Origin: Rhodocyclaceae bacterium
Lineage (GTDB): Bacteria; Pseudomonadota; Gammaproteobacteria; Burkholderiales; Rhodocyclaceae
Assembly (NCBI GenBank): GCA_006218025.1
Contig: VBWA01000031.1
Location: forward strand, 1-35,452
Length of the DNA stretch: 35,452 nt
Reading direction: 5' to 3'
Part shown: piece after piece, positions 7,478 to 35,452 of the stretch
Layout of the letters: each line of letters opens with the position of its first letter
Numbering within the stretch: position 1 is the first letter of the stretch
Notes under the pieces: generated by a model
What the model saw: only the letters and a program-made list of their open reading frames with translations
Told to the model about the DNA's origin: nothing
Databases searched by the model: none
Translations under genes and position numbers: made by a program

Positions 7478-8045
7478 AAAAACCGCCAAGACACCGCGCG
7501 CCATGCTGGATCGCGACGCCTGGATCAAGGGCGCGATCGCCATCCTCGCCGAGCACGGCGCCGAACGCCTGCGCGTGGAAGTCCTGGCCAAGCGCCTCGG
7601 CGTGACCAAGGGCAGCTTCTACTGGCATTTCAAGGACAGGCGCGACCTGCTCGATGCGGTGCTCAACCTGTGGAAGGAAGGCCGCATCCGCGACATCCGC
7701 AAGCAGACCCAGGCCCAGCCCGGCGGCGAAGCCGCCGCCCTGCTCCACACCATCGAGGTCTACGCCTCGGCGCGCAACCGCAAGGGCATCGCCATCGAAG
7801 CCGCGGTGCGCGACTGGGCGCGCCGCGACCCGCAGGCGGTGGCCGTCGTGGAGGAGGTCGACGCCGAACGCCTGGCCTGCGCCTGCCGGCTGTTCCTCGC
7901 CTGCGGCATCAAGGAAGAAGAAGCGCAGGCGCGCAGCCTGATGCTCTATGCCTACGTCTTCGGCGTCAGCCTGATGCGCTGCGGCGGATTCACCAGCAAC
8001 ATCGAAGCGCTGAAAGCCTGGATCGCCGAACGCATCGCCCGCTGA
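7470..8045 (+). CDS. TetR-family transcriptional regulator
   Basis: This 191-aa protein has an N-terminal helix-turn-helix (residues about 14-60; [20 protein letters not shown] then [13 protein letters not shown]), the signature of TetR regulators. A helical ligand-binding domain follows. The start at 7470 gives the usual short lead before the DNA-binding domain; a longer frame to 7425 is possible but would run across the dyad. It is divergent from etfB. Family and position suggest that it senses an acyl-CoA or related metabolite and represses the etf/acyl-CoA dehydrogenase operon. The ligand is unknown. Between its stop and 8240 I see no gene, only the convergent end of the lipoprotein gene. 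Confidence 0.9.
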
Positions 8046-8240
8046 TAGCGGGAGCGTGCGCAGCGCAGGAGTCGGCGGTGGCAATACGGCGGTAGAAGGA
8101 GAGGCTGCGCCGTGACGCTGCTTTACCGCGTGACGGCCGGCGTACCCCCCTCAGCGCCGCCTCATGGGGCGCCAGTCGGGAAGGTGCCAGCTTTGCTTAG
8201 GAGCACTAGCCAACTTGGTGCCAAACTTGTCGGGCTTAGC

Positions 8241-11189
8241 TCAGGGCTTAGCGACCTGCTTGGCTGCCCGCTTGGTCACCGGCTTGGCTACAACCTTCCC
8301 GGTCTTCGCCTCAGGTGTGGGCACCGCATTAGCTTCTTCCTTCTGTGTGATCTTGATGGTGTCTGGGCTTAGGGGAATCGGCTTTCCCTTGGCCATCACT
8401 TTCACCGTGTATTCCACAGCGGCTTCCGGCTCCGTATCGAAGGTGACCTTGAACTCGCACTGGTCGACAGTCTTTTTCGTGGAATCCCTCGTGCAAGAGG
8501 TTCCCTTCGCTGCCGGGCCCTTTCCTCCCTTCACCTCAAGCACCACGTCCAGCTTCTCGGCGTCGCTGCCGGGATAGGCGACAGCCGCTTTGACGGGAAA
8601 CGACACCGTAAACACCGAGTCCTTGAGCGCCTTCAGGGTGAGTTGCGCGGGCTGCAACTTGGCCTTGGAATCTTCGTCCGTCTTGTAATAGATCGCCGTA
8701 ATCGGTCCCCCGAAAGGCTGCGGCGGACGAATGTCCGGCGCAGCCTTGACAGCCACCTGTACCAGCAGCTCATCACCCGATTTCATCTTCGGGAAAGTTG
8801 GCGTCTTGACGGAGGCGCCCGCCCCGGAGTTGAGCAGGTTGGTGATATCTTCGGTCTTGTGCTCCGCGGTACCGAGACTGCCGAAGAAAACGGTCATGCC
8901 GAAGAAACTCTTCTGCGGCGGCGCCAAGTTGATTTCGACCATTTGGCCGCCAATCGCGGCGTTGCTGGCCAGCGTCGCCTTCGGATCGGGCGCCGCCGGC
9001 GGCGCGACCTTCGCCGGATTGATCTTGACGAGCGCCGCATCGGCATGGCCTTCGGAGGTCCAGACGACGAGCAGATCCTTCTCCGTGGACCCTTTGGGCC
9101 GCTGAAGCTTGATCTCCTTGAACTTGGCCACGAGGCCGCGCATGTCCGGAAGGACGGTGACCTCGTCCGCCTGTTGGCTACCGAGGAGGACGACTGGATT
9201 GCGCCAGAGATTCTGCCCGGGAATCACGATGGTGGCCGCGGCGCCTTCCTCGAACTCCAGGGCTTGCCGGGTAAAGGGCCGCGGCTCGCGAATCGCTTCC
9301 TGCGCGAGCACGTCGGTAATTGTCGTGAAGTCGGGATTCAGGCGCACCGGCATGGTCTTCTCGACGGGCTTCGCCGGAACGAAACCGTCGTCGTTCACCC
9401 ATTGCGTCCTGACCCTGAAATCCACCTCGTTCAGCCATCCAGGCAGCGAGATCACTCCGGACAGCGAGTTGAACGCCACGGTGTGGCGGTAGTGGCTGCC
9501 GCTGCCGTCGTTCTTGATTGCAAAACGCGGTCCGAGTATCCACCCGAATGACGTGCAACGCTCGACCGGTTCGGTCTGCGCCTTAAGGTCGCATGGCATC
9601 TTGCCATCGGCCTTTTCGGCAATATCCGTCTTGTAGGTTCCCTTGCTGAAACCAACGACGAGCGGCTGGCGGTGAATGGCCTGAAAGATGCCTTCGCTGA
9701 CTTTCATGTAGTCGGTGTACAGCTTGCCCGCGGCGGAATTGCCGGCGAGAAAGCTCAGCGCAAGCATGAACTCGCTCACGTTGCGGCGGCTCGCGACCTC
9801 GGAGATACGCTGCACCGATTCCTTCGGTGTGGATGCGTAGGCGAATATCTCCGCCTTATCATGCAGTTCCGCACAGAATTCCTCGGCCCTCATTTGCGCT
9901 TCGGCTTTGTCCTCGTTGCCAGTGGCTTTCTCGTCCGCTCCTTTTACATTCTTGAGTACCCTGAGTGTTCTGCCGTCGCTCTGGAAGCCGGCATTCACGT
10001 ACTTGGGTAGCAGACGTGTCAGCAGGCGTTGGTGGGCGGCGGAGATCTCGATGTATATCTGCTGCCTGAGTTCCTCGCGATCAGGTGTCTGTTTCCTGAC
10101 GTGCCGACGCGCGCGTTCCATTACGATTTCCGACGAAGTCCTATAAGACTCGCTCTTGTCAAGCCAATCGCGCTGGATCTCGAGCAATACGTAGTCGGGA
10201 AGAAACGCCACCATGCCCGCGATGAAGGCCGCGTCCTTCTCAGCCTGCGAGGCCTTTGGTCCCTTTTCAGCCTCTGCCGCACGGCCCGCCTCGAAGCCGC
10301 GCCTCATCAGGAGCAATGTTCGTTCGCGCAGGTCCATGCCGACGTGACTCACCCATCTGCCATACAGGTCTTGGGCGAGGCATGCCTTTTCCCATTTTCT
10401 TGTGTCGACTTCAACCGTGATGATCGCCCAGGCGCTCGTGTCGTCATCCGGGCGCACCGCCGCGTCGACATCGAACCTCAGCAGCGTGTTTCCCTTGAGA
10501 TCGTGCCGGTCGTCAAGCGCGTTCTCGAGCATCTCCGTGCGGATCAGGCCGCGGTACTCCAGCTTGTCGCGCAATACCTCCTGGGGCGAGGGTTTCAGCT
10601 TGTCCGGAAATTTCAGGGTGGACGGATCGATAGTGAACTTGCCGACGTCGTCCTTCAGCTTGCGCACGTCTTCAACGACCGTGGGGCTGGTGGGCACCGC
10701 AGTTGTAGGCGACGCGTCCGGCTTGCCTGTCGGCGGCGTGAACGCAAAGGCGGACGACGACTGCTGCGCCATTGCTTCCATCTGGCGCTGCTTGTACTGA
10801 CGCAGCAGCTGGTTATCCAGCTCCGCCTGCTCCTGCTGCCTGCGCCCCGCATCGGCCGATTGAGCCGCCTGCGCCCGGTACTGGGCGATCTCGACCTGGT
10901 TGGCGTTCGCCTCGAGCCGCGTGCTGGAGCCGACGAAGCTGCGCAGGTCGGCGGCGCCTTGAAAGCCGAATTCCTGCTGGTCGCTGCGCCTCAGCTCGTC
11001 CTTGAGCCAGGCGTCCTGCGTGAGCCTGTCATTGACCAGCCTCTCACGACTGGAGACGCGCGCGTCGCCCACCGTGATGTCGCCGTAGGTCGTTCCCTTG
11101 GTATGCTTGAAGATGTCGGTACTGCAGCCGCCGACCGAGAAACCCAGGATGAGCGCAAGAGCATGAAAATGCCGACCGGATGTACGCAT
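8241..11189 (-). CDS. Large lipoprotein of unknown function (982 aa)
   Basis: The start at 11189 is preceded by a GAGGGAGGGG purine run. The N-terminus has a short basic head, a hydrophobic stretch (ALALILGF) and a lipobox SVGGC with cysteine 22, so export and lipid attachment are expected. Residues about 95-150 are glutamine-rich and probably coiled coil (QQEQAELDNQLLRQYKQRQM). A Pro/Thr/Ser linker follows, then a mostly mixed-fold region with helical parts, a beta-rich second half (about 560-940), and a low-complexity Lys/Ala/Pro tail. I do not recognise the family. It follows the TPR and kinase genes in the same direction, 255 bases downstream of the TPR stop. It could be an envelope partner or target of that kinase system, but that rests on position only. 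Confidence 0.8.
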   Translation of the reverse strand: MRTSGRHFHALALILGFSVGGCSTDIFKHTKGTTYGDITVGDARVSSRERLVNDRLTQDAWLKDELRRSDQQEFGFQGAADLRSFVGSSTRLEANANQVEIAQYRAQAAQSADAGRRQQEQAELDNQLLRQYKQRQMEAMAQQSSSAFAFTPPTGKPDASPTTAVPTSPTVVEDVRKLKDDVGKFTIDPSTLKFPDKLKPSPQEVLRDKLEYRGLIRTEMLENALDDRHDLKGNTLLRFDVDAAVRPDDDTSAWAIITVEVDTRKWEKACLAQDLYGRWVSHVGMDLRERTLLLMRRGFEAGRAAEAEKGPKASQAEKDAAFIAGMVAFLPDYVLLEIQRDWLDKSESYRTSSEIVMERARRHVRKQTPDREELRQQIYIEISAAHQRLLTRLLPKYVNAGFQSDGRTLRVLKNVKGADEKATGNEDKAEAQMRAEEFCAELHDKAEIFAYASTPKESVQRISEVASRRNVSEFMLALSFLAGNSAAGKLYTDYMKVSEGIFQAIHRQPLVVGFSKGTYKTDIAEKADGKMPCDLKAQTEPVERCTSFGWILGPRFAIKNDGSGSHYRHTVAFNSLSGVISLPGWLNEVDFRVRTQWVNDDGFVPAKPVEKTMPVRLNPDFTTITDVLAQEAIREPRPFTRQALEFEEGAAATIVIPGQNLWRNPVVLLGSQQADEVTVLPDMRGLVAKFKEIKLQRPKGSTEKDLLVVWTSEGHADAALVKINPAKVAPPAAPDPKATLASNAAIGGQMVEINLAPPQKSFFGMTVFFGSLGTAEHKTEDITNLLNSGAGASVKTPTFPKMKSGDELLVQVAVKAAPDIRPPQPFGGPITAIYYKTDEDSKAKLQPAQLTLKALKDSVFTVSFPVKAAVAYPGSDAEKLDVVLEVKGGKGPAAKGTSCTRDSTKKTVDQCEFKVTFDTEPEAAVEYTVKVMAKGKPIPLSPDTIKITQKEEANAVPTPEAKTGKVVAKPVTKRAAKQVAKP

Positions 11190-28381: not shown

Positions 28382-28893
28382 ATCGGCTTGAAGTGTTCGA
28401 AAGGTTCGCGGCAATCGAGGCAGCGATGCAGCGACTTGCAGGCGGTGGAGCCGAAGGCGGACAGGCGCTCGGTATGCGCACTGCCGCAACGCGGACAAGG
28501 CACGGCGGCCTGGCGGCGACCGACGATGCGGATCGGCACGGCGCCATCGGCAAGCACCGGACCGGGTGGAGCGATGCCGTAGTCGAGCAACTTGCGTTTG
28601 CCCTCGGCACTGATCCAGTCGCTGCTCCAGGCGGGCGCCCGGCGCATCGTCACGCGCGCCGGACCGAGGCCGGCGGCATCGATGGCATCGATCACACTCT
28701 TCTCGATGACTTCGGTGGCCGGGCAGCCGCTGTAGGTCGGCGTCATCACGACCTCCAGGCCGTCGTCATGTTCGATGACTTCGCGCACCAGGCCCAGGTC
28801 GACCACGGAGAGCGCCGGCACCTCGGGGTCGAGTACCTCGTTGAGTGCGGCCCAGGCGCTGTCGATGCGCGAGGCGGCGGCAACTGTCACCAT
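28378..28893 (-). CDS. paaD: Phenylacetyl-CoA epoxidase accessory protein PaaD
   Basis: This 171-aa protein has an N-terminal MIP18/DUF59-type domain (WAALNEVLDPEVPALSVVDL, TPTYSGCPATEVIE). A C-terminal zinc-ribbon-like part follows with CPRCGS and CLDCREPF. PaaD is required for epoxidase activity and is thought to assist metal or Fe-S assembly. It overlaps paaC by seven bases and paaE by four. Confidence 0.94.
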   Translation of the reverse strand: MVTVAAASRIDSAWAALNEVLDPEVPALSVVDLGLVREVIEHDDGLEVVMTPTYSGCPATEVIEKSVIDAIDAAGLGPARVTMRRAPAWSSDWISAEGKRKLLDYGIAPPGPVLADGAVPIRIVGRRQAAVPCPRCGSAHTERLSAFGSTACKSLHRCLDCREPFEHFKPI

Positions 28894-29660
28894 GCGCCAC
28901 CCGGATAGGTACGCTGCAAGTATTGCATCTCGGCCAGCAGGTAACCCATATGCTCGCTGTGCAGCCCGCGCTTGCCGGTGCTGCGGAAAGCCGCCTCGCC
29001 GGGCATGGCCAGCTTGGCCTCGCCGAGGATTTCATTCATCTCGGCCAGCCACGGCTCCTGCAATTCCGACCAGGCGGGGCCGAGGCCGGCGGCCACAGCC
29101 GCGGAGTCGACTGCATCGGCCTCGAACAGCTCGGGCGTGTAGAGCCAGACCTGGGCCAGCGCGACCTCGCAGCGGCGGCGCGACTCGTCGGTACCGTCGC
29201 CGAGGCGCACCGCCCAGTCCGCGGCATGCTGCTGGTGGTAGCGTGCTTCCTTCAGGGCCTTGCCGGCGATGGCGGCGAGGTCGGCGTCGCTGGAATCGCG
29301 CAGCCGTTCCCACATCAGTTTGAGCCAGGTGGCGACGATGGTGTTGCGCAGCACGGTGAAGGCAAAATCACCGCGCGGCAATTCGGCCAGCGTCGGATTG
29401 CGGTAGTCGCCTTCGTCGCGCAGGAATGCGAGCTGGTCCTCGTCATAGCCCTCGCCGCTGCGCTGGCCCGCCAGAGTGAGAAGCGCGCGCGACTGACCGA
29501 TCAGGTCGAGCGCCATGTTGGACAGCGCGATGTCCTCTTCGAGGATCGGTGCGTGTCCGCACCACTCGCCGAGGCGCTGGCCGAGGATCAGGCAGGTGTC
29601 GGAGAGGCGCAGCAGATACTGCAATTCAGGCGCGGCGGGAATCCGGATTGAAGCGACCAT
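28887..29660 (-). CDS. paaC: Phenylacetyl-CoA epoxidase structural subunit PaaC
   Basis: This 257-aa helical ferritin-like subunit partners PaaA in the epoxidase core but lacks a working diiron site. Family segments include YLLRLSDTCLILGQRLGEWC, EEDIALSNMALDLIGQSRAL, and KEARYHQQHAADWAVRLGDG with TDES after it. It lies 12 bases after paaB and overlaps paaD by seven bases. Confidence 0.95.
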   Translation of the reverse strand: MVASIRIPAAPELQYLLRLSDTCLILGQRLGEWCGHAPILEEDIALSNMALDLIGQSRALLTLAGQRSGEGYDEDQLAFLRDEGDYRNPTLAELPRGDFAFTVLRNTIVATWLKLMWERLRDSSDADLAAIAGKALKEARYHQQHAADWAVRLGDGTDESRRRCEVALAQVWLYTPELFEADAVDSAAVAAGLGPAWSELQEPWLAEMNEILGEAKLAMPGEAAFRSTGKRGLHSEHMGYLLAEMQYLQRTYPGGAW

Positions 29661-29672
29661 GGTCTGTCTCCC

Positions 29673-29972
29673 TTACATGTGGTCTACCGAATCCGGCAGC
29701 TTGTAGAACGTGGGATGGCGATATACCTTGTCCTCGGCGGGATCGAAGTACATGTCCTTGTCGCCCGGGTCGCTGGCGACGATCTGGTCGGAGCGCACCA
29801 CCCAGACGCTGCTGCCTTCCTGGCGCCGGGTATACACGTCGCGTGCCATCTGCACCGCCATCTTCGGGTCGGCGGCGTGCAGGCTGCCACAGTGCTTGTG
29901 GTCGAGGCCGGCCTTGGTGCGCACGAACACTTCCCACAAGGGCCATTCGTTTTCAGTCGGGTTCGGGTTCAT
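29673..29972 (-). CDS. paaB: Phenylacetyl-CoA epoxidase subunit PaaB
   Basis: This 99-aa small subunit of the epoxidase has the family pattern [40 protein letters not shown] and [13 protein letters not shown]. The start at 29972 overlaps the paaA stop by four bases (ATGA); a longer frame to 30032 is not needed. PaaB is thought to help assemble or bridge PaaAC heterodimers. Confidence 0.95.
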
Positions 29973-30976
29973 GCTGCCTTCTCCTTCGTCGATTCCTTGC
30001 GCGCGTGGACCAGTGCCGCTTCGCGCACCCATTCACCCTCTTCCCATGCCTTGACCCGCGCCGCCAGCCGTTCGCGGTTGCAGGGGCCCTCGCCCCCCAC
30101 CACGCCCCAGAACTCGGACCAGTCGATGGTGCCGTAGTCCCAGTGCTGGGTTTCCTCGTTCCAGCGCAGGTCGGGATCGGGGAATGTGACGCCCAATACC
30201 TCCGCCTGCTGCACGGCGGCATCAACGAACTTCTGGCGCAGCGTGTCGTTGCTGACGCGCTTGATGCCCCAGCGCATGCCCTGCGCCGAATTCGGGCTCT
30301 GGTCGTCGGGCGGGCCGAACATCATCAGGCAGGGCCACCACCAGCGGTTCACCGCTTCCTGAACCATGGCTCTTTGCGCGTCGGTGCCGTCCTTCATCAT
30401 CACCAGCAGGCTGTCGAAGCCCTGGCGCTGGTGGAAGCTCTCCTCGCGGCAGATGCGAACCATGGCTCGCGCATATGGCGCGAAGGAGCAGCGGCAGATC
30501 GGCACCTGGTTCATGATCGCCGCGCCGTCGACCAGCCAGCCGATGGCGCCGACGTCGGCCCAGGTCAGCGTCGGGTAGTTGAAGATCGAGCTGTATTTGG
30601 CCTTGCCCGTATGCAGCGCGTCCAGCATCTGGTCGCGGCTGCTGCCGAGGGTCTCGGCCGCCGCATAGAGGTAGAGGCCGTGACCGCCCTCGTCCTGCAC
30701 CTTGGCCAGCAGGATGGACTTGCGCTTGAGAGTCGGCGCACGGGTGATCCAGTTGCCCTCGGGCAGCATGCCGACGATCTCGGAATGCGCGTGCTGGCTG
30801 ATCTGCCGCAACAGGGTCTTGCGGTAATTGTCCGGCATCCAGTCCTTGGCTTCGATGAAGTCGCCGGCGTCGATGCGATTGTCGAAGCGCTGCTGCAAAG
30901 CAGCTTCCTCGGCCGTGCGCAACGCGGGCTTGTCGCCGCCTTCGTCGCGCATCGTGTCCATGGCTTGTGTGTACAT
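29969..30976 (-). CDS. paaA: Phenylacetyl-CoA epoxidase catalytic subunit
   Basis: This 335-aa diiron oxygenase converts phenylacetyl-CoA to its ring 1,2-epoxide using O2. Diiron ligands are visible in QDEGGH (Glu96, His99) and CREESFH (Glu178 or 179, His182). The product matches full-length PaaA, ending with the conserved [20 protein letters not shown] region. A purine-rich site (AAGGAA) lies about eight bases before the ATG at 30976; an ATG five codons later is possible. It heads paaABCDE. Other paa genes (paaK, paaG, paaZ, paaJ) are not in the window. Confidence 0.96.
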
Positions 30977-31204: not shown

Positions 31205-32107
31205 TCAGCCGGCGGCCGGGGCGTCCCTGGGTGCGACGCGCTCGTGGTAGCGCGCCCGGTAGAGCAGGCGGCGCTTTTCAGGCGTCTCGGTGAAGCCGGA
31301 GCGGTCATGCAGCACGTTGTTGCAGACCAGGCCCATGCCCGGCTCCAGGCGTCCGTGCAGCGTCCAGGCCGTCGGCGTCGCGAGCAGGCGGGTCAAGGCG
31401 GCAACCGCCGCCTGCGTGGCGGCGTCCGTACGCCATTCGATGCTGATGGTGCGCGCCGTGTAGCGCATGTGCAGGTAGCCCTCGCCATCGACCGAGAACA
31501 CCGCCCCGGGCTGCGCGGCACGCGCGACGCCGCTGTCGTCCATGCGCGGTGGAATGATCATGGCATCGGCCTGCGACAGGGCGCGGATGTAGTCCGGGTT
31601 CTCGTCGCGCAGCAGGATGTAGGCGATCTCGTGGTCGAGCAACTGGTTCTCGCCACCCGAGGCGGCGCTCTGCACGCAATGCAGGATCAGGCCGCGCACC
31701 GTGCGTTCGGGCAGGTTGTAGTAGCCGTCGGTGTGCCACCGGATCGGTTTATCGGTATAGGGAATGAATTCCTTGCGCTCGCCGCGTTGTTCCGCACCGG
31801 TTACCGAGATCGGCGAAATCGCGTCGTCGTCGGTGAGCCAGTGGCTGTCGAGGCGATGCAGGCCAAGCTGGGTCCCCAGCCGGCGCGGTATCTCCTTGTC
31901 GGCGTTGCCCACGGTGTTGCTGGTGTAGACCGCCATGTTGGCAATCGAGCAGCGCTGCAGCAGGGCATCGAGCTCCGTAGCCGTCAGCGCGCGCGGATCG
32001 TCGAGCGGCACCAGGATGTCCTCGATGCGCCGCGGAGCGCCGTCGAGTTTCTTTTCACGCCACTGGCGATAGCTCGCAGGATCGTCGAGATCGAAGGGAC
32101 TGTGCAT
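31205..32107 (-). CDS. TauD/TfdA-type Fe(II)/2-oxoglutarate dioxygenase
   Basis: This 300-aa protein has the facial triad of the family: HxD in RWHTDGYY and a distal histidine in NNVLHDRSGF, followed by an arginine-rich RLLYRARYHERV that would bind 2-oxoglutarate. The middle part (NQLLDHEIAYILLRDENPDY) is typical of TauD-type folds. The start at 32107 overlaps the upstream gene's stop (TGATG), so the longer frame is rejected. Members oxidise taurine and other sulfonates (releasing sulfite), alkyl sulfates, or many unrelated compounds. A sulfonate-like substrate would suit the dsr neighbours but is only inference. It is the last gene of the six-gene cluster divergent from dsrA. Confidence 0.82.
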   Translation of the reverse strand: MHSPFDLDDPASYRQWREKKLDGAPRRIEDILVPLDDPRALTATELDALLQRCSIANMAVYTSNTVGNADKEIPRRLGTQLGLHRLDSHWLTDDDAISPISVTGAEQRGERKEFIPYTDKPIRWHTDGYYNLPERTVRGLILHCVQSAASGGENQLLDHEIAYILLRDENPDYIRALSQADAMIIPPRMDDSGVARAAQPGAVFSVDGEGYLHMRYTARTISIEWRTDAATQAAVAALTRLLATPTAWTLHGRLEPGMGLVCNNVLHDRSGFTETPEKRRLLYRARYHERVAPRDAPAAG

Positions 32108-32712
32108 CACTCGCCCGAAACGCCGTCTCGCGAGCGCCGACTTTTCGCTTCGGGATGGAACAGACCGGCCAGGGTCTTTTCCAGCGCCTTGATGGCCTCC
32201 GGCGACTCGATTTCCATGACCTGATCGACCGCCCAGAGCCGATCCTTTTCCGGCAGCACTTCCTTCAGGCAGGCGGCGAAGCAGCGCCGAAAACCGAAGT
32301 CGGGTCCGTTCTCGGTGTAGCCGTGGTCGCCATACTCGGGGCCGCGCCGGTTGAACAGATCGAGAAAATGCCCGTGGCACTTTCCCGGCGCCACGTCGTA
32401 CAGCAGCATTTCGCGATTGTCATCGACCGCCGCCGCCATGCGCTGCGCCAGCGCCGTGGTGAATTCCATGCGCTGCTCCGGCGTCAGTTCACGATAGGCG
32501 ATGCGATCCGCCGCCAGGGCGAGGAAGACCATGAACTCGCAAACGAAATCGAAATAGGCATCGCCGATATCGATGTCGTATTCGGCCTCGCGCATGCGCT
32601 TGATCGAATCGATCGCCAGCTTCCATCCCAGCACCGCGATCACGCCGGCGAGTTCCGTCATCGAGCGCGGCTTGCCGCCGGTGTGGAAAGTGGAGCGAAT
32701 CCTAACGGCCAT
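32107..32712 (-). CDS. Unknown helical protein coupled to TauD-type gene (201 aa)
   Basis: This 201-aa predicted cytoplasmic protein is mostly helical, with EYDIDIGDAYFDFVCEFMVF at about 44-63 and GHFLDLFNRRGPEYGDHGY in the second half, then PDFGFRRCFAACLKEVLPEK. Three histidines, several acidic residues and four cysteines could bind a ligand or metal, but no known motif is met. It is not recognised. It overlaps the dioxygenase start by one base, so the two are likely made together. Its start at 32712 has only a weak purine site; an ATG 17 codons later is an alternative. Confidence 0.75.
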   Translation of the reverse strand: MAVRIRSTFHTGGKPRSMTELAGVIAVLGWKLAIDSIKRMREAEYDIDIGDAYFDFVCEFMVFLALAADRIAYRELTPEQRMEFTTALAQRMAAAVDDNREMLLYDVAPGKCHGHFLDLFNRRGPEYGDHGYTENGPDFGFRRCFAACLKEVLPEKDRLWAVDQVMEIESPEAIKALEKTLAGLFHPEAKSRRSRDGVSGE

Positions 32713-32739
32713 GGTTCATCTCATTCGAGCGCAGCGAGC

Positions 32740-32788
32740 GAATCAGTCACCCCCGCCTGGGCGGGGGCTGGGGGGTGGGGGCGTCAAT
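32740..32788. repeat. Dispersed G-rich hairpin repeat, copy 1
   Basis: GAATCAGTCAC is followed by a hairpin, CCCCCGCC (32750-32757) with GGCGGGGG (32760-32767), then CTGGGGGGTGGGGG and TCAAT. The same order of parts recurs at 33169-33215 with different but still complementary stem arms, so the structure is kept. It lies between the DsrC-like gene and the 201-aa gene. A further dyad, ATTCG with CGAAT, sits directly to its left. Confidence 0.7.
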
Positions 32789-32796
32789 GGGGCAAC

Positions 32797-32839
32797 GCCG
32801 AAGGGAAAAGGAGGCTAATAGCCTCCTTTTCCCTTCGGC
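32797..32839. repeat. Perfect 21-bp inverted repeat at the DsrC-like C-terminus
   Basis: Arms 32797-32817 and 32819-32839 are perfect reverse complements around a single base at 32818. The right arm encodes the last six residues and the stop codon of the DsrC-like gene. The transcript would form a very stable hairpin across the stop. No thymine run follows on the minus strand, so it is not a standard intrinsic terminator. Confidence 0.9.
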
Positions 32840-33153
32840 TGCGGCAAGCCCGCGACCTTGCAGCCTTCCTTGGCGGCGCCGCCATCGGGGAACAGGTCGA
32901 ACAGCAGCGCGCTGTCGGCCTCGGGCATGTCGCCCTCTTCCTGCAGGGCCTTGATCAGGTTGCGCATGTTGGGGGTGTGGCCGTCTTCCTTGAACTTGGT
33001 GCGCAGGAAATTGACAATCTTCCAGTGCTGTTCGGTCATGGTGATGCCGCATTCAGCGGCGATGACCTGCACCGCTTCCTCGCTGAAATCGGGCTCCAGC
33101 AGGTAGCCGTAGTCGTCGACTTCTTTTTCAACGCCGTTGATCGTGTAACTCAT
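32815..33153 (-). CDS. DsrC/TusE-family protein lacking the penultimate cysteine
   Basis: This 112-aa protein has AGGAG seven bases before the ATG. Family features are MSYTINGVEKEVDDYGYLLE, TEQHWKIVNFLRTKFKEDGH and PNMRNLIKAL. Canonical DsrC has two C-terminal-arm cysteines: CysB, and 11 residues later the penultimate CysA that carries the trisulfide. Here CysB is present (Cys98 in EGCKVAGLPQP). The CysA position is Lys109, and the tail reads KGKGGY with three residues beyond it. It therefore cannot form the usual trisulfide and is not TusE, which keeps CysA; it is closer to the DsrC-like proteins considered regulatory. Downstream of the tandem TusA gene; flanked on both sides by hairpin repeats. 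Confidence 0.88.
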   Translation of the reverse strand: MSYTINGVEKEVDDYGYLLEPDFSEEAVQVIAAECGITMTEQHWKIVNFLRTKFKEDGHTPNMRNLIKALQEEGDMPEADSALLFDLFPDGGAAKEGCKVAGLPQPKGKGGY

Positions 33154-33168
33154 AAGTTTCTCCTCTCT

Positions 33169-33215
33169 GAATTAGTCACCCCTTCCCTCGGGAAGGGGCT
33201 GGGGGATGGGTCAAT
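33169..33215. repeat. Dispersed G-rich hairpin repeat, copy 2
   Basis: GAATTAGTCAC is followed by CCCCTTCCC (33179-33187) pairing with GGGAAGGGG (33190-33198), then CTGGGGGATGGG and TCAAT. It has the same architecture as the copy at 32740-32788, in the same orientation. The two copies bracket the DsrC-like gene. Confidence 0.7.
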
Positions 33216-33239
33216 CAAAAATCGATTTGAAGCAGGCCG

Positions 33240-33722
33240 TCAGGCCTTCTTCAAATAGAACTCGTGCACGCCGCGTCCGGACTCGTGCGAAAACACCAGT
33301 TCGGCGGCGCCGGCCTTGGCCCAGGACGTGATGTCGTCGGCCGAGCCGGGGCAATCGCTGACCAGTTGCAGCACCTCGCCGGGCTTCATGCCATCGAGCA
33401 GCTTCTTGGCCTGCACGATGGGGCCGGGGCAGGACACGCCGCGCATGTCCAGCGTCACGTGCGCGATCGGCGTGGCGTTGGCGCCGCCGGCACGCTGGAT
33501 CAGGTAGGCGCTCTTGTGGCCGGCCAGCTTCTCGCTGCCGAGCACGACATTGCCGGTGACCTTGGCCCAGGAAAATAGATCGTCCGCGGTACCAGGACAG
33601 TCGGAAATCAGGCGCAGGGTCTGGCCGGGTTGCAGGTCGTCGATAAGCTTCTTCGCGCCCAGGAGCGGCGCCGGACAGGGCAGGCCGCTGACATCGAGCG
33701 TCACGGTGGCAAGTTCAGACAT
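33240..33722 (-). CDS. Tandem two-domain TusA-like sulfur carrier
   Basis: This 160-aa protein is made of two TusA/SirA domains. The first (about 1-75) has LDVSGLPCPAPLLGAKKLID and the second (about 86-160) has LDMRGVSCPGPIVQAKKLLD. Both have the CPxP motif whose cysteine carries a persulfide, and both contain ISDCPGTADD or VSDCPGSADD, giving a second cysteine per domain. Single-domain TusA is about 80 aa, so this is a genuine duplication or fusion. A clear GAGGAG site precedes the ATG. TusA delivers sulfur to DsrE-type acceptors and DsrC in sulfur oxidisers. It lies 24 bases after the Cas6-like gene. Confidence 0.92.
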   Translation of the reverse strand: MSELATVTLDVSGLPCPAPLLGAKKLIDDLQPGQTLRLISDCPGTADDLFSWAKVTGNVVLGSEKLAGHKSAYLIQRAGGANATPIAHVTLDMRGVSCPGPIVQAKKLLDGMKPGEVLQLVSDCPGSADDITSWAKAGAAELVFSHESGRGVHEFYLKKA

Positions 33723-33746
33723 GAGGATCTCCTCGTGAATATCAGG

Positions 33747-34343
33747 TTATTCGCCGACGGCGACAACCGATTTATGCGGAATGAACAGACCGCATCCGAG
33801 CGCGCGATGCGCGCCAAGACCGGCCTCCTGCACAGCCAGGGAATCGGCGGCTCCCAAACCATGCAACATCAGGCTGAAACCACGCACCATGCCTTCTGCG
33901 GTGCGCAACTCGCGCGCCTTGCCGGTGACCAGTTGCGGCTTCAGGCCGCGCTCTGCGAGCGAGGACGTACAACGCTCAAGAAACACGATCTCGTCATCCG
34001 CGCCGACGCTGACGAAATGGGAATACACGACGCCACGCGCAGGAAACAGCGGCCGGACGCTGCTCGCGCCCACCGTCAGCACGGCGCCGTCCAGATCGAG
34101 CCGGGCGCCGGCCAGAGAGTCGGCGCTGGCGACACGGTGAATCGGCAGGCGCAAGGCCAACCGGCTGCGGCGACCGACAAAGCTCATGCCGTCATTGCCG
34201 CGCGCCAGGCCCGACAGCGGCAGGATGCCGGCCTCCGGCTCGTCATCGAACCAGGGCAAGGCACGGCGTACCGCGAGCGACAAGGCATAGACATGGTCGT
34301 CGCCCACGGTTCCGTCTTCAAACGAAAACACCACGTCGACCAT
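33747..34343 (-). CDS. Cas6/Cmx6-like protein (I-MYXAN type), no CRISPR nearby
   Basis: This 198-aa protein starts MVDVVFSFEDGTVGDDHVYA. It resembles the Cas6 variant called Cmx6 in motif order: ALPWFDDEPEAGILPLSG, the segment RRSRLALRLPIHRV, then VRPLFPARGVVYSHF, and a glycine-rich C-terminus HRALGCGLFIPHKSV with VQEAGLG before it. Cas6 proteins are RNA endonucleases that cut CRISPR repeats. No array or other cas gene is in the window, and the gene sits in an operon of sulfur carriers, so the annotation likely hides another function. The ATG at 34343 is chosen because the longer frame overlaps the 79-aa gene. The family call is from memory of the motif pattern. Confidence 0.7.
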   Translation of the reverse strand: MVDVVFSFEDGTVGDDHVYALSLAVRRALPWFDDEPEAGILPLSGLARGNDGMSFVGRRSRLALRLPIHRVASADSLAGARLDLDGAVLTVGASSVRPLFPARGVVYSHFVSVGADDEIVFLERCTSSLAERGLKPQLVTGKARELRTAEGMVRGFSLMLHGLGAADSLAVQEAGLGAHRALGCGLFIPHKSVVAVGE

Positions 34344-34372
34344 GACGGTGGAAGCCTCATCCGGCGCGTAAT

Positions 34373-34612
34373 TCAAACTGCTGCCCCTTCCTTGTCGGCC
34401 ACGCCCGGCTGCGCCGCGGCCCAGTCGCCGAGGACCTTGCCCCAACGCGCCGCGGTGACCGGATCGATGTCGAAAATGGTGAAGCGGCTGCCCTCGCGAA
34501 TGCGCGTGCGCAGCAGCGGCATGCCGCCGGCCTCGAAGACGAACTGTTGCAGTTCGATCTGCTGATTGCCGATGGGCACGCGAAACTTGTCGAGCGAGGT
34601 GACGGTATCCAA
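34373..34612 (-). CDS. Small unknown protein, TTG start (79 aa)
   Basis: This 79-aa protein begins at a TTG (34612) with AGGGA a few bases upstream; no ATG fits. The sequence DKFRVPIGNQQIELQQFVFE and REGSRFTIFDIDPVTAARWG suggests a small beta-rich fold ending in a helix. It is not recognised. It heads the six-gene cluster, 29 bases before the Cas6-like gene and 184 bases from dsrA on the other strand, so both operons share this control region. Confidence 0.75.
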   Translation of the reverse strand: MDTVTSLDKFRVPIGNQQIELQQFVFEAGGMPLLRTRIREGSRFTIFDIDPVTAARWGKVLGDWAAAQPGVADKEGAAV

Positions 34613-34704
34613 GGATTTCCCTTTTTGTGGAGGCGAACTATGGCACCAGCGACGGACAAACGACCATCACCGCGTGGGAGTGCAAGCATATAACCCTTTA
34701 GGGT

Positions 34705-34755
34705 AGGTAGAAATACCTTCCGGGAGTATGGTTTGTGCACCGCACAGACTCATAC
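34705..34755. promoter_or_regulatory. Nested dyads in the dsrA / sulfur-relay control region
   Basis: TGTGC (34734-34738) and GCACA (34742-34746) form a dyad with a three-base centre. It is nested in GTATG (34726-34730) and CATAC (34751-34755). A separate AGGTA (34705-34709) and TACCT (34714-34718) pair lies to the left. Symmetry between divergent operons suggests an operator. No -35/-10 pair could be placed with confidence. Confidence 0.5.
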
Positions 34756-34796
34756 CATCCTTCCATCGAGTTACCCCGACCACGAGGAGACAGACC

Positions 34797-35452
34797 ATGG
34801 CCAAGCCCATGCACCCAACACCGAACCTGGATCAACTGGAAAGCGGCCCCTGGCCGAGTTTTGTTACCGGCTTGAAGCGCCTGGCCAAGGACAAGGATTA
34901 CATGGTCGACGTTCTGGGCCATCTGGAACACTCCTACCAGACCCGCAAGGGCTACTGGAAGGGCGGCACCGTCGGCGTCATCGGCTACGGCGGCGGCGTG
35001 ATTCCGCGCTTCACCGAAATCAAGAATGAGAAAGGCGAAGCCGTCTTCAAGGATGCGGCCGAGTTCCACACCCTGCGCATCATGCCGCCCCCCGGCATGC
35101 ATTACGACACAGCCACCCTGCGCAAGTTCTGCGACATCTGGGACAAGCACGGTTCCGGCCTCATCGCGCTGCACGGCCAGTCCGGCGACATCATGATGCA
35201 GGGCTGCACCACCGAGAATGTACAGAAGGCCTGGGACGAAATCAACGAAATGGGCTTCGACATGGGCGGCGCCGGTCCGGCCGTGCGTACCTCGATGTCC
35301 TGCGTCGGCGCGGCGCGCTGCGAGCAGTCCTGCTACGACGAAGCCAAGGCGCACAAGAACGTGATCAACGCCTTCCTCGACGACATCCACCGCCCGGCCC
35401 TGCCCTACAAGTTCAAGTTCAAGTTCTCCGGCTGCGGCAACGACTGCATGAA
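34797..35452 (+). CDS. dsrA: Dissimilatory sulfite reductase alpha subunit (3' partial)
   Basis: The ATG at 34797 has GAGGAG nine bases upstream. The window holds the first 218 codons and the gene runs off the right edge. The product begins MAKPMHPTPNLDQLESGPWP and contains TRKGYWKGGTVGVIGYGGGV, HGQSGDIMMQGCTTENVQ and the segment SCVGAARCEQSCYDEAKAHK. It reaches YKFKFKFSGCGNDCM, the conserved region around the siroheme-linked [4Fe-4S] cluster. DsrAB in sulfur oxidisers runs in reverse, turning carrier-bound sulfur into sulfite. The reverse type is inferred from the betaproteobacterial setting and from neighbouring TusA/DsrC-like genes, not proved here. dsrB and the rest lie beyond the window. 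Confidence 0.93.
   Translation, partial: MAKPMHPTPNLDQLESGPWPSFVTGLKRLAKDKDYMVDVLGHLEHSYQTRKGYWKGGTVGVIGYGGGVIPRFTEIKNEKGEAVFKDAAEFHTLRIMPPPGMHYDTATLRKFCDIWDKHGSGLIALHGQSGDIMMQGCTTENVQKAWDEINEMGFDMGGAGPAVRTSMSCVGAARCEQSCYDEAKAHKNVINAFLDDIHRPALPYKFKFKFSGCGNDCM

Follow-up and report, generated by a model that had tools for sequence, protein, structure and literature searches.

We analysed a stretch of 35,452 nucleotides from a Rhodocyclaceae bacterium (contig VBWA01000031.1 of assembly GCA_006218025.1; hereafter the window, which is contig C65 of the 4.44-Mb genome G000), in which six minus-strand genes stand back to back with the plus-strand gene dsrA of the reverse dissimilatory sulfite reductase system (rDsr). 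On the whole, the set is best explained as a conserved accessory operon of betaproteobacterial rDsr, built with the divergent dsrA around one operator-like region, an explanation to which we give slightly less than even weight. Its most unusual member is a homologue of Cas6, a protein of the CRISPR (clustered regularly interspaced short palindromic repeats) systems. The sequence comparisons tie this Cas6-like protein (Cas6L) firmly to dsrA and not to CRISPR, and it has almost certainly been domesticated into the dsr system. All six frames named in the original prediction are present in the window, and the set is found again next to dsrA in tens of genomes. The features, in the order of the control region and the genes on its two sides, are:

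34797..35452, plus strand: dsrA, first 218 codons, truncated by the contig end (TIGR02064, 2.4e-83)
34613..34796, between the two strands: shared divergent control region, with 32 columns invariant among 30 aligned sequences
34373..34612, minus strand: DUF6967 protein, 79 aa, TTG start (PF22295, 3e-30)
33747..34376 (TTG start) or 33747..34343 (ATG start), minus strand: Cas6L (PF09559, 2e-47)
33240..33722, minus strand: tandem TusA (TusA2; PF01206 in two stretches, 5.8e-36)
32815..33153, minus strand: DsrC paralogue (PF04358, 1e-29)
32107..32712, minus strand: U201, a 201-aa protein with no Pfam family matched
31205..32107, minus strand: TauD-type Fe/2-oxoglutarate dioxygenase (DsrQ; PF02668, 3.4e-15)

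The junctions are as had been described, with two short ones of 24 and 29 nt, a one-base overlap, and hairpins in both long ones. DUF6967 and Cas6L are separated by 29 nt if Cas6L starts at ATG, or overlap by four bases if it starts at TTG; then follow 24 nt between Cas6L and TusA2, 86 nt between TusA2 and the DsrC paralogue and 102 nt between the latter and U201, which has one base in common with the TauD-like gene. A further piece of dsrA, together with a dsrB-like match, lies at the end of contig C60 of the same genome.

The link of the set to rDsr was to be judged by co-occurrence; for Cas6 and DUF6967 the association proves to be well above chance, so that the link is not refuted. Our family sample contains 101 genomes (numbered G), of which 27 are counted as having dsrA: 25 with a match above the curated cut-off, and G000 and G071, where dsrA is split over contigs; weaker dsrA rows were taken as other sulfite or nitrite reductases. 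PF09559 is found in 25 of the 27 genomes with dsrA and in none of the 74 without it (Fisher 1e-21), and DUF6967 in 26 of the 27 and again in none of the 74 (Fisher 3e-23), although these genomes are related and the trials not independent. Cas6L and the start of dsrA are on one contig in 24 of 25 genomes, a contig break separating the two in G084. In a phylum-wide sample of 398 genomes, 53 have dsrA, and all five genomes with Cas6 and all ten with DUF6967 are among those 53. Both proteins thus behave as rDsr accessory proteins, in that they co-occur with dsrA and are adjacent to it.

The arrangement is preserved over a much larger collection. Of 11.3 million genome contigs scanned, 387 have a Cas6L relative, and the best 80 of these were kept (loci here and below are numbered L); as the peptide pattern favours the dsr type, the counts from them are not unbiased. 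A divergent dsrA match is present in all 80, at 245-730 bases from the Cas6L match in 76 loci and at 1.0-4.5 kb in the other four. These 80 loci contain DUF6967 in 73 cases, the DsrC paralogue in 73, U201 in 72, TauD in 66 and TusA2 in 54, some loci being cut short, and all belong to Pseudomonadota, mostly betaproteobacteria by title. Of 108 Cas6L loci examined (repeats included), 59 have the full six-gene set. Among the named carriers, the complete genome of Candidatus Desulfobacillus denitrificans (L138) has all six genes and Sulfurisoma sediminicola BSN1 (L162) all but TusA2. As a separate observation, no cluster gene was matched in the 20 kb around dsrA in L088 (G076), except a dsrC on the dsrA strand.

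The window protein, described before as Cas6/Cmx6-like, is by sequence comparison a true Cas6 homologue. It scores 132.6 bits with TIGR02807 (cut-off 98.85) and 162 with PF09559 (cut-off 26.7), and a profile made from the alignment of 24 Cas6L relatives matches the type I-B Cas6 of PDB 8fcj_B at 1e-29. All 24 members of this first alignment match the NCBI model "type I-MYXAN CRISPR-associated protein Cas6/Cmx6", the window protein being the one with an individual score listed, and the TIGR02807 cut-off is also passed by one fusion and by five more proteins linked to dsr.

The surroundings of the gene, however, are those of dsr rather than of CRISPR. The window neighbours of Cas6L are sulfur genes that recur in relatives, and in the window, whose proteins were scanned against family models, no cas3, cas5, cas7 or cas8 is among them. 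The gene cas1 (PF01867) is found in 13 of 25 family genomes with Cas6L versus 42 of 76 without it (p 0.82), and has no match in G000. On the dsrA linkage and this independence of cas1, the reading of Cas6L as a CRISPR component is rejected. No array-like repeats were found in the dsr loci, but the crude repeat finder flagged just two of seven plasmid Cas6 loci. These plasmid relatives come from eight records, all cyanobacterial; of the seven fetched, six (L217-L222) are in cas operons, and the Gloeobacter record L216 has no annotated cas neighbour in 16.6 kb. In the latter, plasmid pGMOR1 of Gloeobacter morelensis, the gene annotated as Cas6/Cmx6 (7974-8765) adjoins two genes of the PAPS (3'-phosphoadenosine 5'-phosphosulfate) reductase family and a DNA methyltransferase gene, and is possibly another non-CRISPR use. 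Ten pattern matches in viral contigs were checked with none confirmed, the search pattern favouring the dsr type.

The protein itself has diverged as well, as shown by comparing 107 dsr-linked Cas6L rows (100 distinct sequences) with the six cas-linked plasmid proteins. The Gly-rich loop columns 175, 177, 183 and 185 are invariant in all 107, and D16 is kept in 101. Column 17, whose His we take to be the catalytic His of Cas6, is H in 66, Y in 37 and another residue in 4. Basic columns conserved in the cas-linked proteins are mostly lost, with R in 8 of 107 at column 109 and in 28 of 107 at column 127, column 113 being mostly a gap and column 179 mostly non-basic. On the other hand, W31, E118 and H190 have been gained, each in 106 of 107. 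The median net charge is -1, with extremes of -6 and +6 (n=107); that of the plasmid relatives lies between +6 and +10 (n=7, including the Gloeobacter protein). A tree of 114 rows, 107 of them different, puts the dsr-type Cas6L on one side of a branch with support of 100/99; its comparison set is narrow, and the program gives warnings for long branches and, in six of the seven rows from CRISPR proteins, for composition bias.

Next to Cas6L, the DUF6967 protein has a confident AlphaFold2 (AF2) model (pLDDT 89.6), for which the first 19 Foldseek rows are all Pur-alpha/PURA, with probabilities of 0.93-1.00 and TMq of 0.51-0.60, but a best E-value of 0.1. The predicted fold may therefore be PUR-like, a weak match that we treat as a lead. 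In 70 sequences of the family, R35, E40, R43 and D50 are invariant, while R37 is kept in 65 of them and R39 in 68. In three of 103 neighbouring DUF6967-Cas6L pairs, namely L075 (G080), L080 (G019) and L136, the two proteins form a single open frame with a linker of 25-27 residues. Two of the three genomes with fusions are assembled in one and three contigs, and the three fusions make up one clade of the Cas6L tree. These in-frame fusions are the best evidence for DUF6967 and Cas6L working as a unit.

The label of sulfur relay given to the cluster is supported by the exchange of its carriers. The window TusA2 has two domains, each with C-P-x-P and a second invariant Cys, and all 74 TusA2 sequences show C-P-x-P in both domains and four Cys in total. 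Where TusA2 is missing, a tandem rhodanese (identified by PF00581 in one tested locus) may sit between the DsrC paralogue and U201; of 100 Cas6L loci with U201, 70 have TusA2 only, 12 the tandem rhodanese only (L128, L134, L139, L141, L142, L166, L169, L172, L175-L177 and L179), 18 neither and none both. The rhodanese loci are all inside one clade of 23 rows in the Cas6L tree, which also contains TusA2 loci.

The DsrC paralogue had been said to be without CysA, and this is borne out by its C-terminus, GCKVAGLPQPKGKGGY, in which CysB is present and CysA absent. CysA is found in none of 111 such paralogues, CysB is kept in 45 and a GKGGY C-terminus in 89, versus CysA in 83 of 85 dsrA-strand DsrC proteins of the same loci; the two exceptions are a protein with a paralogue-type tail (L077) and a frame cut short (L134). 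Missing CysA, the paralogue cannot form the CysA-CysB bond and is without the pair of Cys that marks a sulfur-carrying DsrC. The protein in L077 (170-484, G003), with its GKGGY tail, is encoded on the dsrA strand some 12 kb away from dsrA, outside the gene set.

The region between dsrA and DUF6967 was expected to be a control region common to both sides, which agrees with the conserved block, the invariant columns and the operator-like dyad seen across relatives. The elements in it and in the junctions of the cluster are:

34702..34721, no strand: inverted repeat GGTAGGT-AGAAAT-ACCTTCC, a likely operator by dyad count against shuffles
34726..34746, no strand: conserved block GTATGGTTTGTGCACCGCACA, identical in 30 of 99 regions and with at most three mismatches in 41, mostly of nearer relatives
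32797..32839, minus strand: hairpin over the stop codon of the DsrC paralogue, 21 bp perfect, z -6.3
33222..33259, minus strand: hairpin over the stop codon of the tandem TusA, 17 bp with two mismatches, with an exact own-arm complement of 8 nt
32759-32779 and 33190-33210: G-rich repeat GGGGCTGGGGGNTGGG, two copies in the cluster

With spacers of 2 to 8 bases and at most two mismatches, the dyad GGTAGGT-N2..8-ACCTACC is found in 64 of 99 dsrA-DUF6967 regions versus 9 of 1980 mononucleotide shuffles, a count from which 2 of 101 regions longer than 480 bases were left out, for which the arms were picked after viewing the sequences, and which close relatives inflate. A structured RNA leader in the gap, folded in the dsrA sense, was considered and rejected: of 23 predicted pairs, two show any double change, and the covariation term is -0.08. 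With no RNA covariation in the dsrA sense, we read the dyad as a likely DNA operator. A scan of the window for known RNA families gave no match at the gathering threshold.

The hairpins predicted for two junctions are indeed there in the window, but they do not extend to the cluster in general, being limited to some of the nearer relatives. A stem of 12 or more is found in 9 of 64 TusA2-DsrC junctions and 11 of 73 DsrC-U201 junctions, mostly of Sulfuritalea-like relatives, and in none of the relatives' DUF6967-Cas6L, Cas6L-TusA2 and U201-TauD junctions. As they are present in a minority of junctions, the stop-codon hairpins are rejected as general Cas6L sites. In some relatives, the bases 3' of the DsrC-paralogue and TusA2 stops are an inverted copy of the gene's own end; exact own-arm complements of at least 10 nt occur in 7 of 24 and 7 of 26 cases, and among cross-species pairs in 24 of 552 and 22 of 650. 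The G-rich repeat seems to accompany these hairpin inserts; it was also considered as a genome-wide element and rejected, with three copies in the genome, two of them in the cluster.

At the far end of the set, the H-x-D...H residues of the TauD protein, which we take to be its Fe ligands, are conserved in 86, 86 and 85 of 86 sequences, and the enzyme reaches no NCBIfam cut-off. The original prediction knew of no described dsr role for this gene. This does not hold, for by family and by its position divergent from dsrA, rather than by direct sequence comparison, the gene corresponds to dsrQ, a tauD-like gene divergent from dsr genes whose name PMC7596348, where it is noted beside dsr genes, credits to Lenk et al. 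2012; passages of PMC7596348 also report that two deltaproteobacterial clusters have a tusA-like gene instead of tauD. The AF2 model of U201 is all-helical (pLDDT 87.0, pTM 0.83), and its structure search gave no PDB match with E below 0.69. Cse2-like and TetR/COQ9-like identities of U201 were rejected, the matches being weak and scattered only.

Outside the betaproteobacteria, DUF6967 occurs together with TauD in five loci of other families of the phylum, both divergent from dsrA in L223-L226 and on a contig without dsrA in L227. Since this pair is found without Cas6L in such dsr loci, it may represent the older core, to which Cas6L was added later. A siroheme synthase is near the pair, by family in L225 and, judged by eye from a similar N-terminal sequence, in L223 and L226. 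In the distant loci L164, L167 and L168, TauD and Cas6L are separated by two other genes. Close to TauD, a small protein with a core like LSE-x-x-I...DTP-x-NW, matching no Pfam family above cut-off, is seen in L168 (8961-9167), L223 (10230-10493) and L226 (10180-10428), and the larger neighbour in L168 (9232-9939) has a weak Cse2 match under cut-off (E 0.016). In the window, the minus-strand frames at 28887-30976 resemble phenylacetyl-CoA epoxidase subunits, judging by eye.

A swappable sulfur carrier, a DsrC copy that could dock without turnover, and the nucleic-acid-type folds of Cas6L and DUF6967 together suggest a unit by which the flow of sulfur into rDsr is read or guided. In such a unit, the Cas6L-DUF6967 pair would have retained RNA-type folds and lost the processing of CRISPR RNA (crRNA), and may act as a nucleic-acid-binding or scaffold unit. 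Its state could be set by the persulfide delivered on TusA2 or the rhodanese, and also by the CysA-less DsrC paralogue, which could engage DsrAB or sulfur donors without turnover; the outcome would be dsr expression or DsrAB loading tuned to sulfur supply. We put forward this sulfur-gated tuning tentatively, with rather less than even confidence. A more specific version is that a crRNA endonuclease, captured perhaps once, was paired with a PUR-like protein, to which it is fused in one clade, and turned into a regulator of the dsr genes that binds nucleic acid under the control of sulfur; the persulfide on TusA2 or the rhodanese and the non-reactive DsrC copy would report sulfur flow to it. This we think unlikely.

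Several findings weigh against the accessory operon with a nucleic-acid-binding unit. The main one is the loss of basic charge in Cas6L, which speaks against tight RNA binding; DUF6967 is overall neutral (median net charge 0), which speaks against strong RNA binding as well, its PUR match is weak by E-value, and its sequence searches gave no match to PUR proteins. The control region folded in the dsrA sense shows no RNA covariation, and 18 of 100 loci have neither sulfur carrier. Cas6L is missing from two of the 27 family genomes with dsrA (G004 and G076), and 43 of the 53 phylum-sample dsrA genomes, in which oxidative and reductive dsrA are pooled, have neither DUF6967 nor Cas6L, so the unit is not essential to Dsr in general. 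Finally, the loci outside the betaproteobacteria that have DUF6967 and TauD near siroheme synthase and no Cas6L fit a role in DsrAB maturation as well.

That role belongs to the strongest competing explanation, in which TusA2 or the rhodanese, along with the DsrC paralogue, would load DsrAB, protect it or aid siroheme insertion, and Cas6L-DUF6967 would be a protein scaffold making no contact with nucleic acid. The same charge loss, the neutrality of DUF6967, the siroheme synthase in other dsr loci and the carrier exchange speak for it; against it stand the nucleic-acid-binding types of both folds (weakly so for DUF6967) and the invariant Gly-rich loop. We favour sulfur-gated tuning over a pure maturation scaffold, which we rate only slightly lower. 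The TauD-type DsrQ gives another possibility, that the operon serves sulfonate use, with DsrQ freeing sulfite from sulfonates, the other genes handling the product and regulation secondary. Speculation of this kind is reported in PMC7596348 and the H-x-D...H residues are conserved, yet TauD is present in 66 of 80 loci, some cut short, is missing from some long ones such as L125, and stays below all NCBIfam cut-offs, which makes this explanation improbable. Much less probable still is that the genes are chance neighbours co-inherited in one lineage without a common function: the narrow range of the 80 loci would suit it, but the set is kept over divergence to about 35-45% identity, a carrier is exchanged in place, DUF6967 is fused with Cas6L, and the operator-like dyad is conserved. 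The least credible is that Cas6L still processes crRNA for arrays located in other parts of the genome. Full-length homology, the D-H pair kept in part of the family and cas1 in about half of the carriers (13 of 25) would be in line with it, against which stand the linkage to dsrA, the independence of cas1 and its absence from the G000 matches, Tyr in place of H17 in 37 of 107 proteins with most basic residues lost, and the dsr loci without array-like repeats, for which the detector was weak.

If energy metabolism has taken Cas6 over by exaptation, an enzyme of CRISPR RNA is at work in a housekeeping pathway, and the tuning of reverse Dsr becomes testable on a compact gene set; the regulator proposal, if right, would likewise be a metabolic use of Cas6. 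Cas6L genes of sulfur oxidisers would be annotated as antiviral defence under the NCBI model, with relatives on 387 contigs. Among the matches listed from open-licence literature, there is no description of the gene set or of the Cas6 role proposed here, and the sole precedent is the legend of Fig. 3B in PMC10989796, where cas6 is among the coloured genes in dsr gene maps of mangrove metagenome-assembled genomes. In the text of that paper, "cas6" appears once and "CRISPR" never, as a legend without discussion. The cas6 mentions read in other papers, among the matches listed with both Cas6 and dsr terms, are ordinary CRISPR text.

Most parts of the set can be compared with known systems. The map in PMC10989796, compared by its legend only, resembles the window in having a gene called cas6 among dissimilatory sulfur genes. 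The published dsrQ is likewise a TauD-type dioxygenase gene divergent from dsrA, whereas the window gene is the last, not the first, of a six-gene set, and the passages on dsrQ in PMC7596348 make no mention of Cas6, DUF6967, a DsrC paralogue or a 201-aa protein. Siroheme synthase CysG beside non-betaproteobacterial dsr shares the neighbours DUF6967 and TauD, divergent from dsrA, but is not among the gap genes inspected in betaproteobacterial loci. PUR-domain proteins, of which Bpur is a bacterial example (PMC3764826), are alike in predicted fold, and four Arg of DUF6967 are kept in 65-70 of 70 sequences; they differ in that no sequence similarity was found and the E-value of the fold match is weak. 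TusA2 has the C-P-x-P site of TusA, but with two domains per chain, a second invariant Cys in each and a tandem rhodanese substitute in some relatives. The paralogue has the fold of the DsrC/TusE family (PF04358), with CysB in 45 of 111 paralogues, and departs from that family by the missing CysA and the usual GKGGY end. Cas6L is of one family with type I-MYXAN Cas6/Cmx6 (TIGR02807, PF09559) and type I-B Cas6 8fcj, by full-length homology and the Gly-rich loop; unlike the CRISPR proteins, it adjoins dsrA rather than cas genes, is near neutral in charge, often has Tyr for the N-terminal His, and carries the extra conserved W31, E118 and H190.

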